Assembly: GCA_003249035.1 (NCBI GenBank) | Contig: QBMK01000034.1 | Span: 1 to 41,758 of the forward strand | DNA length: 41,758 bases | Direction: 5' to 3' | Origin: Pseudanabaena sp. | GTDB taxonomy: Bacteria; Cyanobacteriota; Cyanobacteriia; Pseudanabaenales; Pseudanabaenaceae | Part shown: positions 30,697 to 38,564 of the stretch, in pieces | How the letters are laid out: every line of letters starts with the position of its first letter | How positions within the stretch are numbered: the first letter of the stretch is position 1 | Translations under genes and position numbers: made by a program | The notes under the pieces: model-generated | Database searches by the model: none | Seen by the model: the letters and a program-made list of their open reading frames with translations, nothing else | Told to the model about the DNA's origin: nothing

Positions 30697-31440
30697 ATGT
30701 TTGCCCAGTTTCGCTCTCAATATCCTCAAGGTCGTATCCAGACAGAGATGCTACCTAAAATAGATGGGCTTCATGCTTTTAGAGCGATCGTATCTGAAGG
30801 AGATGCGATCATGGGTACGGCTACGGCTGTCGATAGCGATCTTGAAATAGCTGAAGATCGTGCTGTAAAACGTGCCCTTGCGATCGCAGGGCTTGCCTTT
30901 GACAATGGTTTTGATAATACCTACGGCAATTATGGAGGGCGATCGCCGATGCTAACACAAGTATCTCGGGAGTCAGCGATCAACTCCCTTCCATCTGCTA
31001 ACTTGAATGCTTTAGGGGCTATGGGGTCGGGGCAAATAGCTGAGCATAACGATTCACGTCCCTTAACACATACGATGCAGACTATTCAAGCTGAATCAGC
31101 CATAGACTATACCAATGAATATGGAGGGAATGAGTTTCTCCCCGAAGCTGATGAAGCATTATCTTCTCCAGCCCGTTCGACAGAACTCCCTACACCGAGT
31201 AAGTCGTCGGCACCCCAAATTTCGCCTGAGCCTGTTGATCTATCAGACGCGATTTCTAAAATCGATGTGGAGATGGAACGACTGAGCTGGACAAAAACTC
31301 AGGGTCGCGATTATTTGGTGAGGACTTTTGATAAAAAGTCACGTCAGCAATTAACCAATGACGAGTTGCTACAATTTCTTAGTCATTTAAAATCTCTACC
31401 AACTCCACATCGACAATCAGCAAACGACGATTTCTTCTAG
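30697..31440 (+). CDS. Conserved cyanobacterial hypothetical protein
   Basis: This is about 247 residues from ATG 30697 (MFAQFRSQYPQGRIQTEML). The N-terminal 70 residues look folded, with AFRAIVSEGDAIMGTATAVD and IAEDRAVKRALAIAGLAF. This pattern resembles proteins in which one strand is followed by a conserved EDRA helix. A low-complexity Pro/Ser/Glu linker follows, about residues 80-175. The C-terminal block WTKTQGRDYLVRTFDKKSRQ and QLTNDELLQFLSHL is a conserved small domain seen in cyanobacterial hypotheticals. No function is established. It is followed by a terminator and then the first Ycf46-type gene. Confidence 0.75.
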   Translation: MFAQFRSQYPQGRIQTEMLPKIDGLHAFRAIVSEGDAIMGTATAVDSDLEIAEDRAVKRALAIAGLAFDNGFDNTYGNYGGRSPMLTQVSRESAINSLPSANLNALGAMGSGQIAEHNDSRPLTHTMQTIQAESAIDYTNEYGGNEFLPEADEALSSPARSTELPTPSKSSAPQISPEPVDLSDAISKIDVEMERLSWTKTQGRDYLVRTFDKKSRQQLTNDELLQFLSHLKSLPTPHRQSANDDFF

Positions 31441-31451
31441 AATTGTCATTG

Positions 31452-31484
31452 AAAACTCGCTATAAAAACTCTTAGCGAGTTTTT
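31452..31484 (+). terminator. Rho-independent terminator
   Basis: AAAACTCGCTA and TAGCGAGTTTT pair over 11 bp with a short T run following, starting 12 bp after the preceding stop. It separates the hypothetical gene from the Ycf46-type gene. Confidence 0.7.
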
Positions 31485-31505
31485 GAAAATCCAAGGCATC
31501 TGTGC

Positions 31506-33155
31506 ATGAAATCTCTCAATTTTAAAGAAGAACTTAGTCTGCTGATCCGCTCTAAATGTCCGATTATTTACGTCGTGACATGGGAAGAAGAACGAGCAGA
31601 AAAGGCGATCGCGCAAGTTGCAAATATATGTTCCCCCCCACGTCAGATGCACTATTACGACCTAGTGCGCGGTTTTGAGCATAATCAAGAAGGCAAAAAC
31701 AATTTATTGCAAGCCCTGCAAATTGTTGAGAATAGCGATCGGCAAACGGCGACTATTTATGTATTTCGTGATTTACATCGGCGCTTAGCCTCTCCACGAC
31801 TAGATGAAATCTTAGTCCGCCAACTTCGCAATCTCTATCGAAGTTTTCACAATTCGCGTAAGACTTTAATTTTGTTGAGTCCATTGCTAGAGATGCCATC
31901 GGAACTCGAAGAACAGGTTGCGGTGCTCTATTTCCCCTTACCTGAAACTACAGAAATCCGCAATATTATCGAACAGATGATTCCGCCTGATCAATTGCGA
32001 ATGGAAGGGAATAGCCTTGAACAATTGATTAAAGCTTGTATGGGTATGACTCGCGATCGCATTTGTCATACTCTTTCTAAATCAATAGTGCAAAAGCATT
32101 TTCTTAATGAATCAGATATTGATCGTGTTTTATTTGAGAAGCAAAAACGGATTCGCCAAACGGAGTTTTTAGAGTTTTTTACACCAAATGAAACTTTAGA
32201 TAGTATTGGTGGATTAGATAATTTTAAGCTATGGCTCATGCAGCGTCAGCGAGCTTTTTCCGACGAAGCAAGGGCGTTTGGTTTACCGAACCCTCGCGGC
32301 GTTTTGTTGCTAGGTATTCAAGGAACGGGGAAGAGTCTTTGCGCGAAGGCGATCGCCAATCTTTGGCGGTTACCACTATTAAGATTGGATGTCGGACGCT
32401 TATTTGGGAGCCTAGTCGGACAGTCGGAAAGTCGCACGCGCCAAACGATTCAGCTAGCGGAAGCCCTTGCGCCTTGCATCCTCTGGATTGATGAAATTGA
32501 TAAGGCTTTTGGTGGTGTTTCAAATAGTATGGGCGATTCGGGGACAAGTCAGCGTGTGCTGGGAACTCTACTAACATGGATGCAGGAGAAATCCAGTCCA
32601 GTATTTGTGGTGGCAACTGCCAATAATATCCATGCGCTACCACCAGAGTTACTGCGAAAAGGACGATTTGATGAATTATTCTTCATCAACTTGCCTACCT
32701 ATGAAGAACGCCAAGAAATCTTCTTACTCCATTTGAAACGTTTTCGCCCAGTGGAATTACGCAATTTTGATATTGATCAAATGGCGGCAATTTCTAAAGA
32801 GTTTAGCGGTGCAGAAATCGAACAGGCAATCGTCGAAGGTATGTATCGAGCTTTCCATGAACAGCGCGATGTTAGTACCGAAGATATCTTGGGCGCGATC
32901 GCAGAAACCTATCCTTTAGCTAGTACAGCTAGGGAGCAGATTAGTTTTATGCAAGCATGGGCAACTCAAGGAAGAGCGCGGAGTGCTTCGCGGGGAGAAG
33001 TAATTGATATACCAAGTGATAAATTAGGCGTAAAATCAGGCGATATTACTTTGATTGATAATGCAACTAAAGCCTTAAATGAGAAGTCAAGAAGCAAACA
33101 TCGTCCTTTACCTTTACCACCGTTACCTCAAATTAAATCCAGTTCTGACTCATGA
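31506..33155 (+). CDS. Ycf46-type AAA ATPase (paralogue 1)
   Basis: This is a 549-residue AAA protein of the Ycf46 family. The N-terminal 220 residues (LSLLIRSKCPIIYVVTWEEE, then LLSPLLEMPSELEEQVAVLY) form the family-specific domain. The ATPase core has Walker A LLGIQGTGKSLCAKAIANLW, Walker B CILWIDEIDKAFGGV, sensor VVATANNIHALPPELLRKGR with the Arg finger, and AAA lid LHLKRFRPVELRNFDIDQMA. The C-terminal tail is disordered and Pro/Leu-rich. Its stop overlaps the DUF3038 start by 4 bp. Ycf46 proteins have been linked in cyanobacteria to inorganic-carbon use, but the mechanism is unknown. Confidence 0.87.
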   Translation: MKSLNFKEELSLLIRSKCPIIYVVTWEEERAEKAIAQVANICSPPRQMHYYDLVRGFEHNQEGKNNLLQALQIVENSDRQTATIYVFRDLHRRLASPRLDEILVRQLRNLYRSFHNSRKTLILLSPLLEMPSELEEQVAVLYFPLPETTEIRNIIEQMIPPDQLRMEGNSLEQLIKACMGMTRDRICHTLSKSIVQKHFLNESDIDRVLFEKQKRIRQTEFLEFFTPNETLDSIGGLDNFKLWLMQRQRAFSDEARAFGLPNPRGVLLLGIQGTGKSLCAKAIANLWRLPLLRLDVGRLFGSLVGQSESRTRQTIQLAEALAPCILWIDEIDKAFGGVSNSMGDSGTSQRVLGTLLTWMQEKSSPVFVVATANNIHALPPELLRKGRFDELFFINLPTYEERQEIFLLHLKRFRPVELRNFDIDQMAAISKEFSGAEIEQAIVEGMYRAFHEQRDVSTEDILGAIAETYPLASTAREQISFMQAWATQGRARSASRGEVIDIPSDKLGVKSGDITLIDNATKALNEKSRSKHRPLPLPPLPQIKSSSDS

Positions 33156-33706
33156 CCTCCAATTCTGCGCCTTCCTTTGAAAATCCAGATTTGCCTCAGT
33201 TGCAGGCTATCAAGGCGCATTTGGATTTAGTGCTGCTTGCTATCGAGTCATTAACGGGAATTGGTTCCGATGAAATGCTTGCGGTTGCTGAAAAGTTAGG
33301 ATTTGAAGAGATTTTAAGCGATCGCATCACACTGTGGCGCTTACGGCAGGCTAGTCCCTTACGCAAGGGCAAGGGGCGCAAAAAGCTGGATGTTGATGAG
33401 GCTAGGGCAATGACTTTAATCAGTTGTACGTTGGCAGCACAACAACAATTTGCGATCCGCAATGGGGTTGCTCAGTTAGAGAAATGCACGGCTCTAAAGC
33501 GTACGCCCCACCGCGAACCAATTTTGGGTGATTACCTCGATCGCTTTAATAGTCTGTATCAAGAGCGGATGGCTGAGGAGGAGCAAGCTAAACCTGAAGA
33601 GATTCAACGTTTAGCTTTAAAACTATTAATAGATTTATTATTTTATAGCTCCCAAATTGGCTCACGTCGTTTGTGGGTAGCTTTATTTGAGCGATCATCG
33701 CACTAA
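33152..33706 (+). CDS. DUF3038 domain protein
   Basis: This is a 184-residue, all-helical, cyanobacteria-specific protein. Recognisable blocks are KAHLDLVLLAIESLTGIGSD, RITLWRLRQASPLRKGKGRK and ILGDYLDRFNSLYQERMAEE, then LALKLLIDLLFYSSQIGSRR. No catalytic motif is evident. The 4-bp ATGA overlap with the Ycf46-type ATPase gene indicates one transcript and possibly a physical partnership. It is followed by a hairpin. DUF3038 genes in other cyanobacteria are often paired with another small conserved protein, which is not evident here. Confidence 0.85.
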   Translation: MTSNSAPSFENPDLPQLQAIKAHLDLVLLAIESLTGIGSDEMLAVAEKLGFEEILSDRITLWRLRQASPLRKGKGRKKLDVDEARAMTLISCTLAAQQQFAIRNGVAQLEKCTALKRTPHREPILGDYLDRFNSLYQERMAEEEQAKPEEIQRLALKLLIDLLFYSSQIGSRRLWVALFERSSH

Positions 33707-33707
33707 G

Positions 33708-33746
33708 AGTTTTTTGTATCGAGGCTTCGCTGCTCTACAAAAAACT
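33708..33746 (+). terminator. Terminator-like hairpin after DUF3038
   Basis: AGTTTTTTGTA and TACAAAAAACT pair over 11 bp around a 17-nt loop, starting two bases after the stop codon. It is AT-rich and lacks a 3' U-run, so its strength is uncertain. Confidence 0.45.
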
Positions 33747-33846
33747 TGAGATCGCAGAGCCTCAAGGCGGGTGTAAAAAAGTTGCGATCGGTTATAGTGA
33801 TAGTCAAGTAACAAAGATTAATTTTTTAAGAGTCTGGAAAGCATTT

Positions 33847-34356
33847 ATGACCATTTCTATGTATCAGGTTGCAGTTCCTTCCCTAGTGCGATCGCTAAAT
33901 AATTTAGTCGCCATTTTAGAAAAGGGATCGGCTCATGCTGAAGCAAAAAAAATCGATCCCTCTGTACTCATAGCGAGTCGTTTGTATCCCAATATGTTAC
34001 CGCTCAACCGTCAAGTGCATATTGCTTCGGATATTGCTAGACGTGGTGTTGCTAGATTGGCTGGCGCAGAAGCACCTGCGTTAGAAGATAAGGAAACTAC
34101 TTTTGCAGAACTTTGCGATTGGCTACGGAATGTGGTCGCCTTCATCGAGTCGTTCACTCCCGAACAGATTGATGGTTCTGAAGAGAGAGTAATTACTCTA
34201 CCTATGGGTAAGGAGACGATGACTTTTGCTGGACAAGCCTATTTGCTTTTCTTCATTTTGCCAAATGTCTATTTCCATGTGGCAACAGCCTATGACATTC
34301 TGAGACATTGCGGTGTTGAGCTAGGCAAGCGCGATTTCTTGGGCGCTCCTCAATAG
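33847..34356 (+). CDS. DUF1993 family protein
   Basis: This is a 169-residue helical protein similar to DUF1993 (DinB-like fold). It opens with MTISMYQVAVPSLVRSLNNL, then LPLNRQVHIASDIARRGVA, AELCDWLRNVVAFIESF and YFHVATAYDILRHCGVELGK. DUF1993 members are thought to be four-helix-bundle proteins with possible metal binding through His and Asp/Glu, seen here at His55, Asp59 and His141-like positions. No role is established. It stands alone between a hairpin and a 300-bp gap. ATG 33847 follows an A/G-rich leader (GAAAGCATTT). Confidence 0.8.
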   Translation: MTISMYQVAVPSLVRSLNNLVAILEKGSAHAEAKKIDPSVLIASRLYPNMLPLNRQVHIASDIARRGVARLAGAEAPALEDKETTFAELCDWLRNVVAFIESFTPEQIDGSEERVITLPMGKETMTFAGQAYLLFFILPNVYFHVATAYDILRHCGVELGKRDFLGAPQ

Positions 34357-34652
34357 TAATTGAAGCCAAAAGCTCTTGATGGATAGAATTTCTTTCATTA
34401 CTGAAAATCTAGATACAAAATGCTGGAATGCATTTTTAAATATATTTTGCTATCCATCAAGCAAGTTTACACAGCATTTTCTAAAAGCAAGGAACGTGAT
34501 ATTCTTGCCGCCGCTTCGACTTCAGTTTGTATTAGATAACTGTATCTATAGCTTTATTGAGCGACATCTTATCAAGATATTAATTTATTCATCAGCATCT
34601 CTTAAGCAATAAGTGAGTGTGACAAAGTCAATTTGATTGAGCAGAATTAATT

Positions 34653-35333
34653 CTAATTCTCAATCGCAACTTCGCCCCTATCGAGATTTGAGGTAATTCT
34701 GGAAACTGGAATAGGTATGTGATCGCTACACATTGATCTTAGCTTATCAACAAACATTGAATTTTCAGCTAATAAAGTCATATTTTCATAAGCAGAGCGA
34801 TAGACGTCAGAATATTCCCTAGTTGAAGTGGCGTAAACCTTCGCGGGTGCAGTTGTTCCAGAAGGAGTAGTAAGACGGCTAGGATATCTTTGCTGCTTAT
34901 GCTCTATGGCTTGATTAGTTTGACGAGTAACTTGAGGAATTTTAGCGGCTCCTTGCACTGGGCGACGAGGAAACAGAAGCGGCGAATTTGATTCTACTGT
35001 TGAGAATGGAGAAATTTCCGTTACCGCAGCTTCGCGGGTAGAAGTACGAGGCGGTGTGTAAAAAATTCGATCTTCATAAATCACGGCAACATCGCCACAG
35101 ACCAACCGCTCAAATTCGTGATTGTAGCGGCAATTCGGTTCGCCTTTGCGTTCCCATAACTGCAATATCTGATTAACCGAAACTGCTTTATATCTTCCTT
35201 GAAACAGTGATTCTATTACGGCTTGGCGCACCCATTCAGGTTTAAAACTACTCCATGCACGAGTCAAATCTTTGATGGAATAGCCACCAAGATCAAAACT
35301 GTAATGTTGCAAGAGGGCGATCGCAATTTCCAT
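34653..35333 (-). CDS. Conserved cyanobacterial hypothetical protein
   Basis: This is a 226-residue protein. Residues 1-95 are a conserved helical block: AIALLQHYSFDLGGYSIKDL, WVRQAVIESLFQGRYKAVSV, LQLWERKGEPNCRYNHEFER. From about 100 to 175 it is Pro/Thr/Arg-rich low complexity. The last 40 residues include YRSAYENMTLLAENSMFVDK. It has been seen across cyanobacteria, but I know no function. It resembles a DNA- or protein-binding adaptor only in having a folded N-terminus and a flexible tail. The palindrome at 35573 lies in its upstream region, about 240 bp from the start. Confidence 0.7.
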   Translation of the reverse strand: MEIAIALLQHYSFDLGGYSIKDLTRAWSSFKPEWVRQAVIESLFQGRYKAVSVNQILQLWERKGEPNCRYNHEFERLVCGDVAVIYEDRIFYTPPRTSTREAAVTEISPFSTVESNSPLLFPRRPVQGAAKIPQVTRQTNQAIEHKQQRYPSRLTTPSGTTAPAKVYATSTREYSDVYRSAYENMTLLAENSMFVDKLRSMCSDHIPIPVSRITSNLDRGEVAIEN

Positions 35334-35572
35334 TGGGGCGACATTTATCTCGGATTATGTATCAAGATCTTACATTTAAAATCGTGAAATGAAAATAGTA
35401 TTAGACAGAATTTATATTTATTAGGAAAACCAGATTGTGGCTTCAGTATTTTTTTCGCAGCTAACTTTTCTATTGCTTTCTTTAACAATGCGATTTTTAA
35501 GTTTGGCAAGATACAAAAAACATCACAATGTTCACTAACTCATGATTTATCAATACATAGCTAGGGCAAATC

Positions 35573-35627
35573 AAAACCCAAATAAATGAAGGTGGCGCGA
35601 AGCGCCACCTTCATTTATTTGGGTTTT
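35573..35627. repeat. Interspersed palindrome, copy 3
   Basis: This is a perfect 26-bp inverted repeat (35573-35598 and 35602-35627) with loop GAA. It differs from copy 1 at three positions per arm, and each change is matched in the opposite arm. The flank ATAGCTAGGGCAAATC at 35557-35572 is nearly identical to that of copy 1. It lies in a 460-bp gene-less gap whose other notable content is the terminator at 35731-35760. Confidence 0.85.
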
Positions 35628-35730
35628 TTGTCCTAAGCAAAACTTTCATTGCTATATATATTGATTGTCAAATTTTTTTCAGGGATTTCACCAACAGGTT
35701 TAGGCGATCGCCTATTTTTTTGAATTAAAA

Positions 35731-35760
35731 AACAGGCTAGTCAAGGATGACTAGCCTGTT
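35731..35760 (-). terminator. Terminator of the Ycf35 gene
   Basis: AACAGGCTAGTCA and its exact complement (13 bp, 4-nt loop) are followed on the minus strand by TTTTTT. This is the textbook layout of a Rho-independent terminator, 34 bp after the Ycf35 stop. Confidence 0.85.
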
Positions 35761-35793
35761 AATTTGCATAATTAGCTCGCAAGATTAGGCACC

Positions 35794-36144
35794 TTACTGC
35801 AAAACAAGTTTGACATTGGCATTGCTTAAACCAGGACGCTTCACTTCAGTCAGAGCCTTGTTCACCGCATATTTCTGATTGATCGAATTGATCAGCTCAG
35901 TCTGATTGTGCTTCTTAGCAACACCCCATAGATCAGCGATCAGATCAAATGAACCGTCGGCATTACGCGACCAGCCCAAATCATAATCACCTTCTAGAGT
36001 TGCCACGATGTCGGCACGAATGCGTTGGCTATTGTAGCCACGAACATCAGCTTCAGTGTTAACACTGATACCCAGATCGCGCAAAGACGACTTTAGGACT
36101 TCGGCATCAGTAATTTTTGTGCGAAGAGTGCTGAAATGAGACAT
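35794..36144 (-). CDS. ycf35: Ycf35 / DUF1257 family protein
   Basis: This is a 116-residue protein. The start MSHFSTLRTKITDAEVLKSS and then LRDLGISVNTEADVRGYNSQ are characteristic of DUF1257 (Ycf35). DIVATLEGDYDLGWSRNADG and LIADLWGVAKKHNQTELINS complete the conserved body. It is an alpha/beta protein with no known catalytic motif, conserved in cyanobacteria and red-algal plastids. AGGAG precedes the ATG by about 10 bases. It sits downstream of the second Ycf46-type ATPase on the same strand with a 174-bp gap, so co-transcription is plausible. Confidence 0.88.
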   Translation of the reverse strand: MSHFSTLRTKITDAEVLKSSLRDLGISVNTEADVRGYNSQRIRADIVATLEGDYDLGWSRNADGSFDLIADLWGVAKKHNQTELINSINQKYAVNKALTEVKRPGLSNANVKLVLQ

Positions 36145-36318
36145 AATAGTTTTGCTCCTGTGAATAATTGTGAACGCAATTGTTAACTAGAACGTGAGAC
36201 GTAAGAGTATTGGTGGTTCTTACTCCTATGTTAGCTGCAAGCCTAAAGTTCTTTTAATAAGAAATCTTTAGAATCTAGCCTTACCTCTGCTGCTTGCAAA
36301 AACAGCAGAATAAGCTTT

Positions 36319-37842
36319 TTAAAACTCCATACGCTGATATTCAGCGACAGAAGTTGCGGCGGGTCTAGCCCGCATCCTTGCCCAGTCACGCAAAGCAGCA
36401 ACCTGCTCAGTCATCGTGCGTGAGAGGGGAGTTGTCGATTTCACAGCAGATATGATGTCAAGCTGTGTAAACTCCCGATCTTGGGCAAAAGCTTCATACA
36501 TGGCGGCAATTACCGCCTGCTCGATTTCCGCCCCCGAAAAACCATCACTTACTTTTGATAGTTGTTCAAAATCGAATCTTTCTAATTTTTCAACATCTGG
36601 ACGACGCTTGCACAGATGGATTTTAAAGATGTCCCTACGTTCTTCACCATTAGGTAAATCAACAAAGAACAGCTCATCAAAACGCCCCTTACGGAGAAAC
36701 TCACTTGGTAGCTTCTCAATACGATTCGCCGTAGCCATAACGAATACAGGTGATTTTTTCTCCTGCATCCATGTGAGAAACGTACCGAAGATCCGAGACG
36801 ATGTGCCACCATCGGAATCAGCCGAACCTGCACCACCAGCAAAAGCCTTATCAAGCTCATCAATAAATAGGATCATCGGTGAAATTGATTCAGCAACCTT
36901 GAGCGCATTGCGTAAATTTGCTTCCGACTTTCCCACAGTGGAGCCATCGTAGACACGCCCCATATCGAGACGGATCAATGGCAATGACCAAAGCCTTGCA
37001 GTTGTCTTGGCTATTAGAGATTTTCCGCAACCAGGAACACCCAAAATCAGCATTCCTTTTGGTTGAGGTAACCCATAATTTCTAGCTCTTTGACTAAAGG
37101 CATTTGAGCGCTGTTGCAACCAATGCTTTAATTCTTCTAGCCCGCCCACATCATTAATGTCTTCTTCATCCTCCATATATTCGAGAATGCCATTGCGGCG
37201 GATTAGCTGTTGCTTTTCTGAAAGCACAATATCGACTTCTTCTTCAGTCAGCTTGCCATTGGTGACCTGTGCTTTCCGATAAACCTTTTCGGCTTCATCT
37301 TGGGTTAATCCCAGCGTTGCTCTGACTAATTTTTCACGAGTCTCAGCCGATACTTTTCTGGTGCGAACCTGACCAAGTTGTTGATCGAGCACTTCTTCGA
37401 TAGCTTGCATATCTGGCAGAGGAAAATCAAGGACGACTATTTCTTTTTCTAACTCGACAGGAATTACCTGAATTGGAGACATCAAAATAATTGTTTTCTG
37501 AGTGCCTTTAAAGTTAGCAACTGCATCACGCAGACAACGGACAATAACTGGATGATCGAAGAAAGGATGTGCGTCTTTAAAAATATATATAGCGGGTTCT
37601 TTTTGATCAGCTCGCGTAATCCATTTCAGAGCCGCTTCAGCAGATTCAGTATTGTGTTGCGCTGCACCCGTAGTTTGACCATACTCAACTATTCCATGAG
37701 TCACAGTCCAAGTGAACATGCGTCGGACTGGCTTGAGTTGAGATATAGTTGCGATCGCCCTTTCTGCTCTTTCTTCCTCTGGAGTGTTGAGGTAGATCAA
37801 GGGATATTGGGCTTGAATTAAAATGCTAAGTTGCTCTTGCAT
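36319..37842 (-). CDS. ycf46: Ycf46-type AAA ATPase (paralogue 2)
   Basis: This is a 507-residue AAA protein. N-terminal LSILIQAQYPLIYLNTPEEE and VDIVLSEKQQLIRRNGILEY belong to the Ycf46-specific region. The ATPase domain contains Walker A LILGVPGCGKSLIAKTTARL, Walker B MILFIDELDKAFAGG, sensor VFVMATANRIEKLPSEFLRK and the GRFDELFFVDLPNGEERRDI lid region, then GFSGAEIEQAVIAAMYEAF. Compared with paralogue 1 it lacks the Pro-rich tail and has a classical GxxGxGKS loop. This copy is the closer match to plastid Ycf46, and its neighbour is Ycf35. The molecular role is unknown. Confidence 0.9.
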   Translation of the reverse strand: MQEQLSILIQAQYPLIYLNTPEEERAERAIATISQLKPVRRMFTWTVTHGIVEYGQTTGAAQHNTESAEAALKWITRADQKEPAIYIFKDAHPFFDHPVIVRCLRDAVANFKGTQKTIILMSPIQVIPVELEKEIVVLDFPLPDMQAIEEVLDQQLGQVRTRKVSAETREKLVRATLGLTQDEAEKVYRKAQVTNGKLTEEEVDIVLSEKQQLIRRNGILEYMEDEEDINDVGGLEELKHWLQQRSNAFSQRARNYGLPQPKGMLILGVPGCGKSLIAKTTARLWSLPLIRLDMGRVYDGSTVGKSEANLRNALKVAESISPMILFIDELDKAFAGGAGSADSDGGTSSRIFGTFLTWMQEKKSPVFVMATANRIEKLPSEFLRKGRFDELFFVDLPNGEERRDIFKIHLCKRRPDVEKLERFDFEQLSKVSDGFSGAEIEQAVIAAMYEAFAQDREFTQLDIISAVKSTTPLSRTMTEQVAALRDWARMRARPAATSVAEYQRMEF

Positions 37843-37916
37843 ATTGTAATACCGAGGTTTGCGCCTCTGTCCTCACCTTGTCTACAGAAAAAATCTAGAA
37901 ATTGCAGATGATTGAT

Positions 37917-38234
37917 TTAACTAATTGAAACTAGCTCTTCATCTGGACTATCAGCTTTGCTAACAGTGACAGGTAAAGTCTGAGAACGATTGCCCCCGAT
38001 CGCTAACAATTCACCCTCACGGATAACAACTGTTTGAGAACAACTTGGACAGTTATAGGTCTGATGGGTATGTCCGACACCTGAAGATTCAACAATATCA
38101 GCATGAGCAAGATAGAAGCTGATGGCTTTGTCTGCTAAATCTGACATCGAATCACCATCAATAGCTGAACGAATCTTTAGCTGTTGATGTAGTCGTTCGT
38201 GGAGATAAAAAGTTACCTTTTGCTTGTCTTGCAT
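37917..38234 (-). CDS. Ribbon-helix-helix-type protein with CxxC knuckle
   Basis: This is a 105-residue protein. The N-terminus QKVTFYLHERLHQQLKIRSA and DGDSMSDLADKAISFYLAHA has the strand-helix-helix spacing of ribbon-helix-helix DNA-binding proteins. A single CPSC pair follows in HTHQTYNCPSCSQTVVIREG, with nearby His residues that could complete a metal site. The tail is acidic. It lies 75 bp upstream of the Ycf46 paralogue 2 start on the same strand, and could regulate it. Similar proteins occur in cyanobacteria, but no target is known. Confidence 0.7.
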   Translation of the reverse strand: MQDKQKVTFYLHERLHQQLKIRSAIDGDSMSDLADKAISFYLAHADIVESSGVGHTHQTYNCPSCSQTVVIREGELLAIGGNRSQTLPVTVSKADSPDEELVSIS

Positions 38235-38564
38235 AATGGTTAAGAGCGGTGAATACCCGGATATGTGATTAACCTACAGGTAAAATCTTAAACTGTCAAG
38301 ACATCATGCAGTCATGACAGCAATAACTTAACTTTTCTTTACATTTAATATATTTACCGTTAGAGGTGATGAATGTCGTAATTAGATCATTGTGGTTATG
38401 ACCAAAAGGACTGCATAGCCTTTGTCTTATCTAGCAAGATTCATCATGTATGGCTATGAAATTGTTTCAGGAACAAAATCATGAACATTTCAGTCATGAT
38501 GTCTAAGCAAATATAAAATCCTAAATAATGCATCAAAGTTAATGCATCTCACATGGAGTCAGGT
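38235..38564. other. Divergent intergenic region with short repeats
   Basis: This is 330 bases between the ribbon-helix-helix gene and the first secreted protein. CAGTCATGA occurs twice directly (38309-38317 and 38491-38499), and AGACATCATG (38299-38308) is complemented by CATGATGTCT (38495-38504). These could be operator sites for a regulator such as the adjacent ribbon-helix-helix protein. No gene was recognised. Confidence 0.35.

Follow-up and report, generated by a model that had tools for sequence, protein, structure and literature searches.

Positions 30,697 to 38,234 of contig QBMK01000034.1 from Pseudanabaena sp. (assembly GCA_003249035.1) carry two gene clusters with Ycf46-type AAA ATPases. 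The whole contig (41,758 nucleotides, contig C27 of this Pseudanabaena genome) was analysed and is called the window here. The interval is two unrelated operons that are neighbours by chance in this strain, and by its gene content the minus-strand one appears to be the known Synechocystis stress operon slr0373-slr0374(ycf46)-slr0376. The reading that best accounts for our results overall, and which we judge moderately probable, is that the small DUF1257 protein of this operon is the partner of a tandem-AAA remodelling ATPase and that the operon is regulated by its own ribbon-helix-helix (RHH) protein. Although the operon itself was already known, the DUF1257-Ycf46 association, the palindrome before the RHH gene and the covarying hairpins are new here. 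From the promoter downwards, the minus-strand operon comprises:

38271-38299, minus strand: promoter-like TTGACA-17-TAGGTT before slr0373, recognized by eye and absent from the consensus-scan listing
38254-38265, minus strand: candidate operator CATATCCGGGTA, one mismatch to CATACCCGGGTA, proposed from conservation
37917-38234, minus strand: slr0373-family protein with RHH N-terminus and CPxC tail, first gene of the stress operon (NF052617, 122.9 bits)
36319-37842, minus strand: Ycf46 of clade B, slr0374 type (Ycf46B; Pfam AAA, 99.9 bits)
36225-36321 (lower end approximate), minus strand: ycf46B stop codon together with a tandem pair of RNA hairpins in the spacer that precedes DUF1257
35794-36144, minus strand: short DUF1257 protein of slr0376 type, 116 amino acids (Pfam, 78.3 bits, cut-off 22.2)
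35731-35760, minus strand: terminator-like hairpin with T-run, 3' of DUF1257, from a scan that gave 14 such sites, several overlapping, against 7.3 expected in the region scanned

Gene neighbourhoods were compared across 146 genomes of the phylum, 67 from the class Cyanobacteriia and 79 from outside it. All 60 genomes with a B-type Ycf46 have a slr0373-family gene upstream and a DUF1257 gene downstream on the same strand, with median gaps of 92 and 203 bp between the matched stretches, a conserved neighbourhood for which an earlier reading of this DNA from sequence alone had asked. The window has the three families in this order on one strand. Its first gene, 122.9 bits against the NCBIfam cut-off of 100, also gives an Arc-like PHROG match (E 2.5e-6), in agreement with the ribbon-helix-helix protein that the sequence-only reading had named. 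Synechocystis slr0373-slr0374-slr0376 shares the gene families and their order, slr0374 being Ycf46, and slr0376 is as long as the window's DUF1257 protein (116 amino acids; PMC2823733), so that synteny and length lead us to infer that slr0376 is a DUF1257 protein. In all 30 loci compared, the DUF1257 protein resembles the window's copy more than Ycf46B resembles its counterpart there. The Synechocystis operon is induced by blue light and many stresses, including iron, sulfur and nitrogen deficiency, salt, high light and oxidative stress (PMC7496141), and the same source, citing other work, connects loss of Ycf46 with lower activity of the carbonic anhydrase EcaB. The suggested role in stress or carbon acclimation thus agrees with published work that ties the operon to stress and CO2 use. 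In the portions of that literature consulted, slr0376 is called hypothetical and there is no mention of DUF1257 kinship, of the palindrome or of a plasmid module.

The association of DUF1257 with Ycf46 extends beyond the B-type operon. The two families occur in equal copy number in 52 of the 67 class genomes, against a mean of 27.3 and a maximum of 41 in 10,000 shuffles that ignore kinship between genomes, and both are missing from one class genome (G141). A second Ycf46 clade, clade C, is followed by DUF1257 at 33/57 loci, and 8 loci have two DUF1257 copies. It is this linkage, together with copy number, that suggests a partnership of DUF1257 with Ycf46. DUF1257 subfamilies cluster by the clade of their ATPase, the window's copy falling in the B-linked clade, in a tree with a short alignment, weak deep forks and C-linked copies in more than one clade. 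Canonical Ycf35 forms a separate DUF1257 clade and its copy in the source genome lies on another contig (G000:C5:30846-31154, 141.6 bits); the gene at 35794-36144, earlier called Ycf35, is a divergent DUF1257 paralogue outside canonical Ycf35. The presence of ycf35 and that of ycf46 both track habitat in red algal plastids, as far as the portion of PMC5940233 consulted goes. Judging from titles and excerpts, we found no title on a Ycf46-Ycf35 partnership.

Two candidate gene fusions were rejected. A long DUF1257-AAA frame in G032 looks by eye like an open-frame artefact of GC-rich DNA, and in G091 the other part of a 580-amino-acid frame is unnamed by Pfam. The C-terminus of this latter frame (L054 4533-6272, G091:C71) is a short-type DUF1257, 72% identical to the window's, and the remainder, without a Pfam match, is NACHT-like by eye.

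Related modules are found on mobile elements. We retrieved 28 plasmid records with a Ycf46-type ATPase (E up to 1e-60) and inspected 11 neighbourhoods, of which five contain both DUF1257 and DUF2997 (H71, H74, H80, H89, H91) and two contain DUF2997, not both (H76, H98). H72 has a sub-threshold DUF2997 (19.0 bits versus 24.1), and in H73, H84 and H97 neither family was found by annotation or a few Pfam tests, the H73 plasmid having a DUF1257 gene about 54 kb from the ATPase. A 4Fe-4S protein lies near the ATPase of H72, H73, H76, H89 and H91, according to Pfam or record annotation. ATPase, DUF1257 and DUF2997 occur together on plasmids of Pseudanabaena, Geminocystis, Planktothrix, Trichormus, Paenibacillus and Bacillus, and also in a Rhizobium phage; the ATPases of the Trichormus plasmid and the Rhizobium phage align with Ycf46B along almost the entire length, at 33% and 36% identity. 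In the Mycobacterium phage Catdawg, no DUF1257 or DUF2997 was found in the two neighbours tested. The plasmid arrangement recalls cluster g of PMC4284462, in which, according to the part consulted, Ycf35 (sll0661) is grouped with DUF2997 and Fed7: the DUF1257 family is common to that cluster and the window, and DUF2997 and a 4Fe-4S protein recur near plasmid DUF1257 or ATPase genes. In contrast, the window's DUF1257 protein belongs to a different clade from sll0661 and has no DUF2997-like or ferredoxin neighbour among frames of at least 60 amino acids. On Pseudanabaena galeata plasmid pPg_01 (L207), a single run encodes GrpE, Hsp70, DUF1257, an ATP-binding protein, DUF2997 and a Ycf46-type ATPase; its Hsp70 and GrpE hint at protein remodelling. 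Prochlorococcus phages P-SSM2 (L205) and P-SSM7 (L206) carry a DUF1257 gene, which in P-SSM7 adjoins psbA and hli genes.

The predicted structures are consistent with a remodelling ATPase. Ycf46B has an intact C-terminal AAA domain with the motifs GVPGCGKS, FIDELDKAF and RKGRFDE, which we take to be Walker A, Walker B and the arginine-finger region; its N-terminal region shows no Walker A motif in a 34-row alignment inspected by eye. Residues 1-495 of the model (mean predicted local distance difference test score, pLDDT, 78) align with p97 D1-D2 with Z 26.3 and a root-mean-square deviation (rmsd) of 13.2 over 457 residues, the large rmsd probably reflecting domain placement, and with p97 D2 alone with Z 24.9 and rmsd 3.3 over 264 residues. 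Like p97/Cdc48, Ycf46B thus has two AAA-fold domains in tandem, but its first one lacks a Walker A motif, and it scores 106.4 bits, below the NCBIfam CDC48 cut-off of 802.65. The model and the alignment together suggest that Ycf46 is a two-ring machine in which one ring is dead. DUF1257 was modelled with confidence (pLDDT 88), and its four N-terminal residues, MSHF, do not vary across 41 rows. Foldseek returned one unnamed viral protein (7.3e-6), probably a viral DUF1257, and a sequence search at E up to 1 gave no solved relatives.

The spacer 3' of ycf46B folds into two tandem hairpins. The test used 27 of the 40 distinct spacers, omitting 10 from Pseudanabaena and three more, and was run on the alignment that had also yielded the structure: 96.1% of cells are paired, both partners vary in 7/16 pairs, and there are 30 double-change cells (11.2 in shuffles), a count that none of the 500 shuffles and no slid version reached. 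Across all 40 spacer rows, 10/15 predicted pairs change on both sides. Rfam gave no match over gathering for the spacer, and a conserved element at slr0374-x-slr0376 had already been predicted (PMC2662882). In Synechocystis, slr0376 has a separate promoter (PMC7283877) and is named with psbA, psaA and cpcA among the strongly expressed genes (PMC3516471). Since hairpins, a separate promoter and strong expression coincide, DUF1257 is likely to be in excess over the ATPase, an effect that the first two may bring about.

Upstream of the operon, TTGAC lies at most 120 bases from the slr0373 start in 43/43 loci, and the palindrome CATACCCGGGTA is located between promoter and start codon, ACCCGGGT being present in 38/43 of these upstream stretches. 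Exact CATACCCGGGTA occurs in 35/67 class genomes and 3/79 others, and 34 of the 36 class sites stand just before slr0373 when placed by eye, the others being at G087:C83 and G046:C1:1355024; a reversed control pattern gave 4 matches in the class. Of the remaining 25 class genomes with slr0373, not counting the window's own, seven have the palindrome with one mismatch (two of them not placed against the start codon) and three with two, and several of the remainder show split half-sites by eye. The window's own CATATCCGGGTA is no better than chance by itself, as 25 of 100 shuffles reach its match, and we accept it as a candidate operator because of conservation. The protein family carries a CPxC motif in 44/45 rows, the exception (L210) being a plasmid RHH frame without that tail. 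Because the site is mostly single-target and lies beside the RHH gene, the data suggest that the operon is autoregulated by the slr0373-family protein at this putative operator. A second conserved block of TGTAAC type lies upstream of the slr0373 promoter (L001-L037 and L194-L204, by eye) and is possibly the site of a global light or redox regulator.

In the mechanism that we propose, Ycf46B would be a tandem-AAA remodelling machine whose first AAA-like domain, without Walker A, accompanies an intact second one. The small DUF1257 protein would serve as its dedicated partner, most likely as an adaptor that brings a client to the ATPase ring or caps it, our guess among adaptor, cofactor and substrate. 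The RHH protein would bind the palindrome and set the level of the operon, with its CPxC site perhaps acting as a metal or thiol switch.

That DUF1257 is instead a substrate, or else an abundant stress protein acting on its own and co-regulated with the ATPase, seems unlikely to us. Such a role would fit the strong expression of slr0376 (PMC3516471), its predominantly monocistronic transcript (PMC7283877) and the DUF1257 genes of cyanophages and of G090, which have no accompanying Ycf46 match; it sits poorly with copy numbers that track each other and with a linkage found in two Ycf46 clades and again on plasmids from other phyla. We think it somewhat less improbable, though still doubtful, that the palindrome serves some other regulator, or is a feature of the transcription start, and is not the Slr0373 operator. 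Some lineages seem by eye to keep only split half-sites with variable spacing, and the TGTAAC-type box further upstream hints at a global regulator. However, the exact site is the sole copy and stands before slr0373 in 33/35 class genomes (G046 has one more elsewhere, G087 its sole site elsewhere), as expected of a dedicated local regulator, and CCCGGG without a loop cannot by itself form an RNA hairpin.

Several observations weigh against a DUF1257-ATPase partnership under the control of the RHH protein. The genomes are related, so that counts overstate independence. Clade C loci lack a DUF1257 neighbour despite sufficient flank in 16/57 cases and are undecidable in 8/57, and copy numbers are unequal in 15/67 class genomes. 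Outside the class, 26/79 genomes have Ycf46 and 8 have DUF1257 (seven with both, one alone), so many basal genomes carry the ATPase without DUF1257. DUF1257 is present in cyanophages in which a search at E up to 1e-40 gave no Ycf46; a phage Ycf46 was expected beside it, because PHROG 8638 matches Ycf46 over nearly the whole length, and was not found, and the cyanophage protein may act on the host's own ATPase. No convincing match to the DUF1257 fold was obtained in the PDB (best VIA-align Z 6.3; none by Foldseek at 0.001). As for regulation, the CATACCCGGGTA pattern was picked out of 43 upstream stretches, a set that overlaps with the genomes in which it was then sought, 15/60 slr0373 promoters have no palindrome match within two mismatches, and slr0373 is among the top expressed genes (PMC3564720), which disfavours simple tight autorepression. 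On two weaker measures of the hairpins, 7 and 30 of the 500 shuffles did at least as well.

Many red-lineage plastid genomes have kept ycf35 and ycf46, and we know of no agreed function for either gene. More broadly, and more tentatively, since we rate the chance slightly below even, Ycf46 and Ycf35-type proteins may belong together, as ATPase and partner, in a single remodelling system that is ancient and in part mobile, composed of a tandem AAA protein with a dead first ring, DUF1257, DUF2997 and often a 4Fe-4S protein. Cyanobacteria and red-lineage plastids would have domesticated it as several paralogous pairs, one of them a stress operon with its own single-target RHH regulator. Two orphan plastid genes would then become a single testable question, and a cyanobacterial stress operon would be linked to plasmid and phage modules in other phyla; matched and mismatched Ycf46/DUF1257 pairs are available for structure prediction, and the single-site slr0373 promoter suits a clean binding test. 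A different picture, to which we attach a low probability, is that Ycf46 acts in membrane-protein biogenesis with YidC and that the stress paralogues are variants of that role. Ycf46 of clade D does lie downstream of rnpA, a PH-domain gene, yidC, an R3H gene and yceD, each family being found within 6 kb in 7 or 8 of 16 D loci (L145, L154-L165, L186-L188; neighbour names tested on L145 and L161), and rnpA, the PH gene and yidC in 5/5 picocyanobacterial D loci. Linkage alone shows no function, however, and the recurrent neighbours listed for clades A and C include none of these families.

The second operon of the interval lies on the plus strand:

30697-31440, plus strand: slr1353-family protein, first gene of the Ycf46A operon (NCBIfam NF058667, 120.9 bits); start codon uncertain, frame open from 30679
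31506-33155, plus strand: Ycf46 of clade A (Ycf46A; Pfam AAA, 112.4 bits)
33152-33706, plus strand: DUF3038 protein (Pfam, 202.6 bits), 4-base ATGA overlap with Ycf46A
33847-34356, plus strand: DUF1993 gene (Pfam, 200.6 bits)
34653-35333, minus strand, between both clusters: 226-amino-acid gene without assigned family

The sequence-only reading had correctly recognized the two Ycf46-type ATPases on opposite strands (112.4 bits on plus, 99.9 on minus), the DUF3038 gene overlapping one of them and the DUF1993 gene, and had proposed that both clusters serve one shared process. This last proposal was not supported by comparison with other genomes. A tree of 152 Ycf46 proteins, made by a quick method with long branches flagged and with one C-labelled and one D-labelled row falling elsewhere, separates into four groups (B, D, C and A), of which A lies next to C; the window's minus-strand protein falls in clade B (branch support 98), and A is found only in Pseudanabaena and close relatives. 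Ycf46A and Ycf46B are thus old paralogues in separate clades, and a recent inverted duplication is ruled out by their 46% identity and different clades. Among 18 Pseudanabaena genomes, only the window's has the A and B clusters 3.3 kb apart; the distance is 966 kb in G147 and 59 kb in G148, and the clusters lie on different contigs in 15, so that synteny across congeners speaks against a single two-ATPase island. Selection for a functional island serving one process is accordingly very improbable in our view, even though Ycf46 genes of types D and B likewise stand opposite one another, with about 5 kb between them, in G008 (L173) and Roseofilum halophilum (L153). The neighbour of B is there clade D rather than clade A, no Ycf46B occurs in the flanks, some of them short, of the 19 A-type loci L074-L092, and among the matches listed for 60 genomes a non-B Ycf46 lies less than 20 kb from B in G000 and G008 only.

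The plus-strand operon is probably a Pseudanabaena version in which DUF3038 takes the place of DUF1257 beside an ATPase whose sister group is the DUF1257-linked clade C. Ycf46A is followed by DUF3038 in 18/18 Pseudanabaena genomes, and a slr1353-family gene lies upstream of it in 15/16 named loci tested. Of 82 other non-B Ycf46, typed from the matches listed with picocyanobacterial and other-class matches left out, none has DUF3038 within 6 kb; the earlier idea of DUF3038 as a partner of the ATPase, and the conserved pairing sought by neighbourhood comparison, are therefore supported within Pseudanabaena only. DUF1993 is not a steady member of the cluster, as it is present in 3/19 A-type loci, some with short flanks. 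No paper on DUF3038 turned up, and a sequence search for solved relatives gave a single meaningless match (E 0.9).

The closest relatives of Ycf46A are Pseudanabaena records and one labelled Phormidium tenue (94-96% identity), and the source genome contains two further Ycf46 genes, of clade C on contig C21 and of clade D on C57. The 226-amino-acid gene also adjoins DUF1257 in 6/11 congener loci (L194-L204; flanks of about 1.5 kb or less). At 35577-35623 a hairpin of 20 pairs, with tails rich in T on either strand, is possibly a repeat element, and similar long hairpins were seen by eye in slr0373 upstream regions of other Pseudanabaena.

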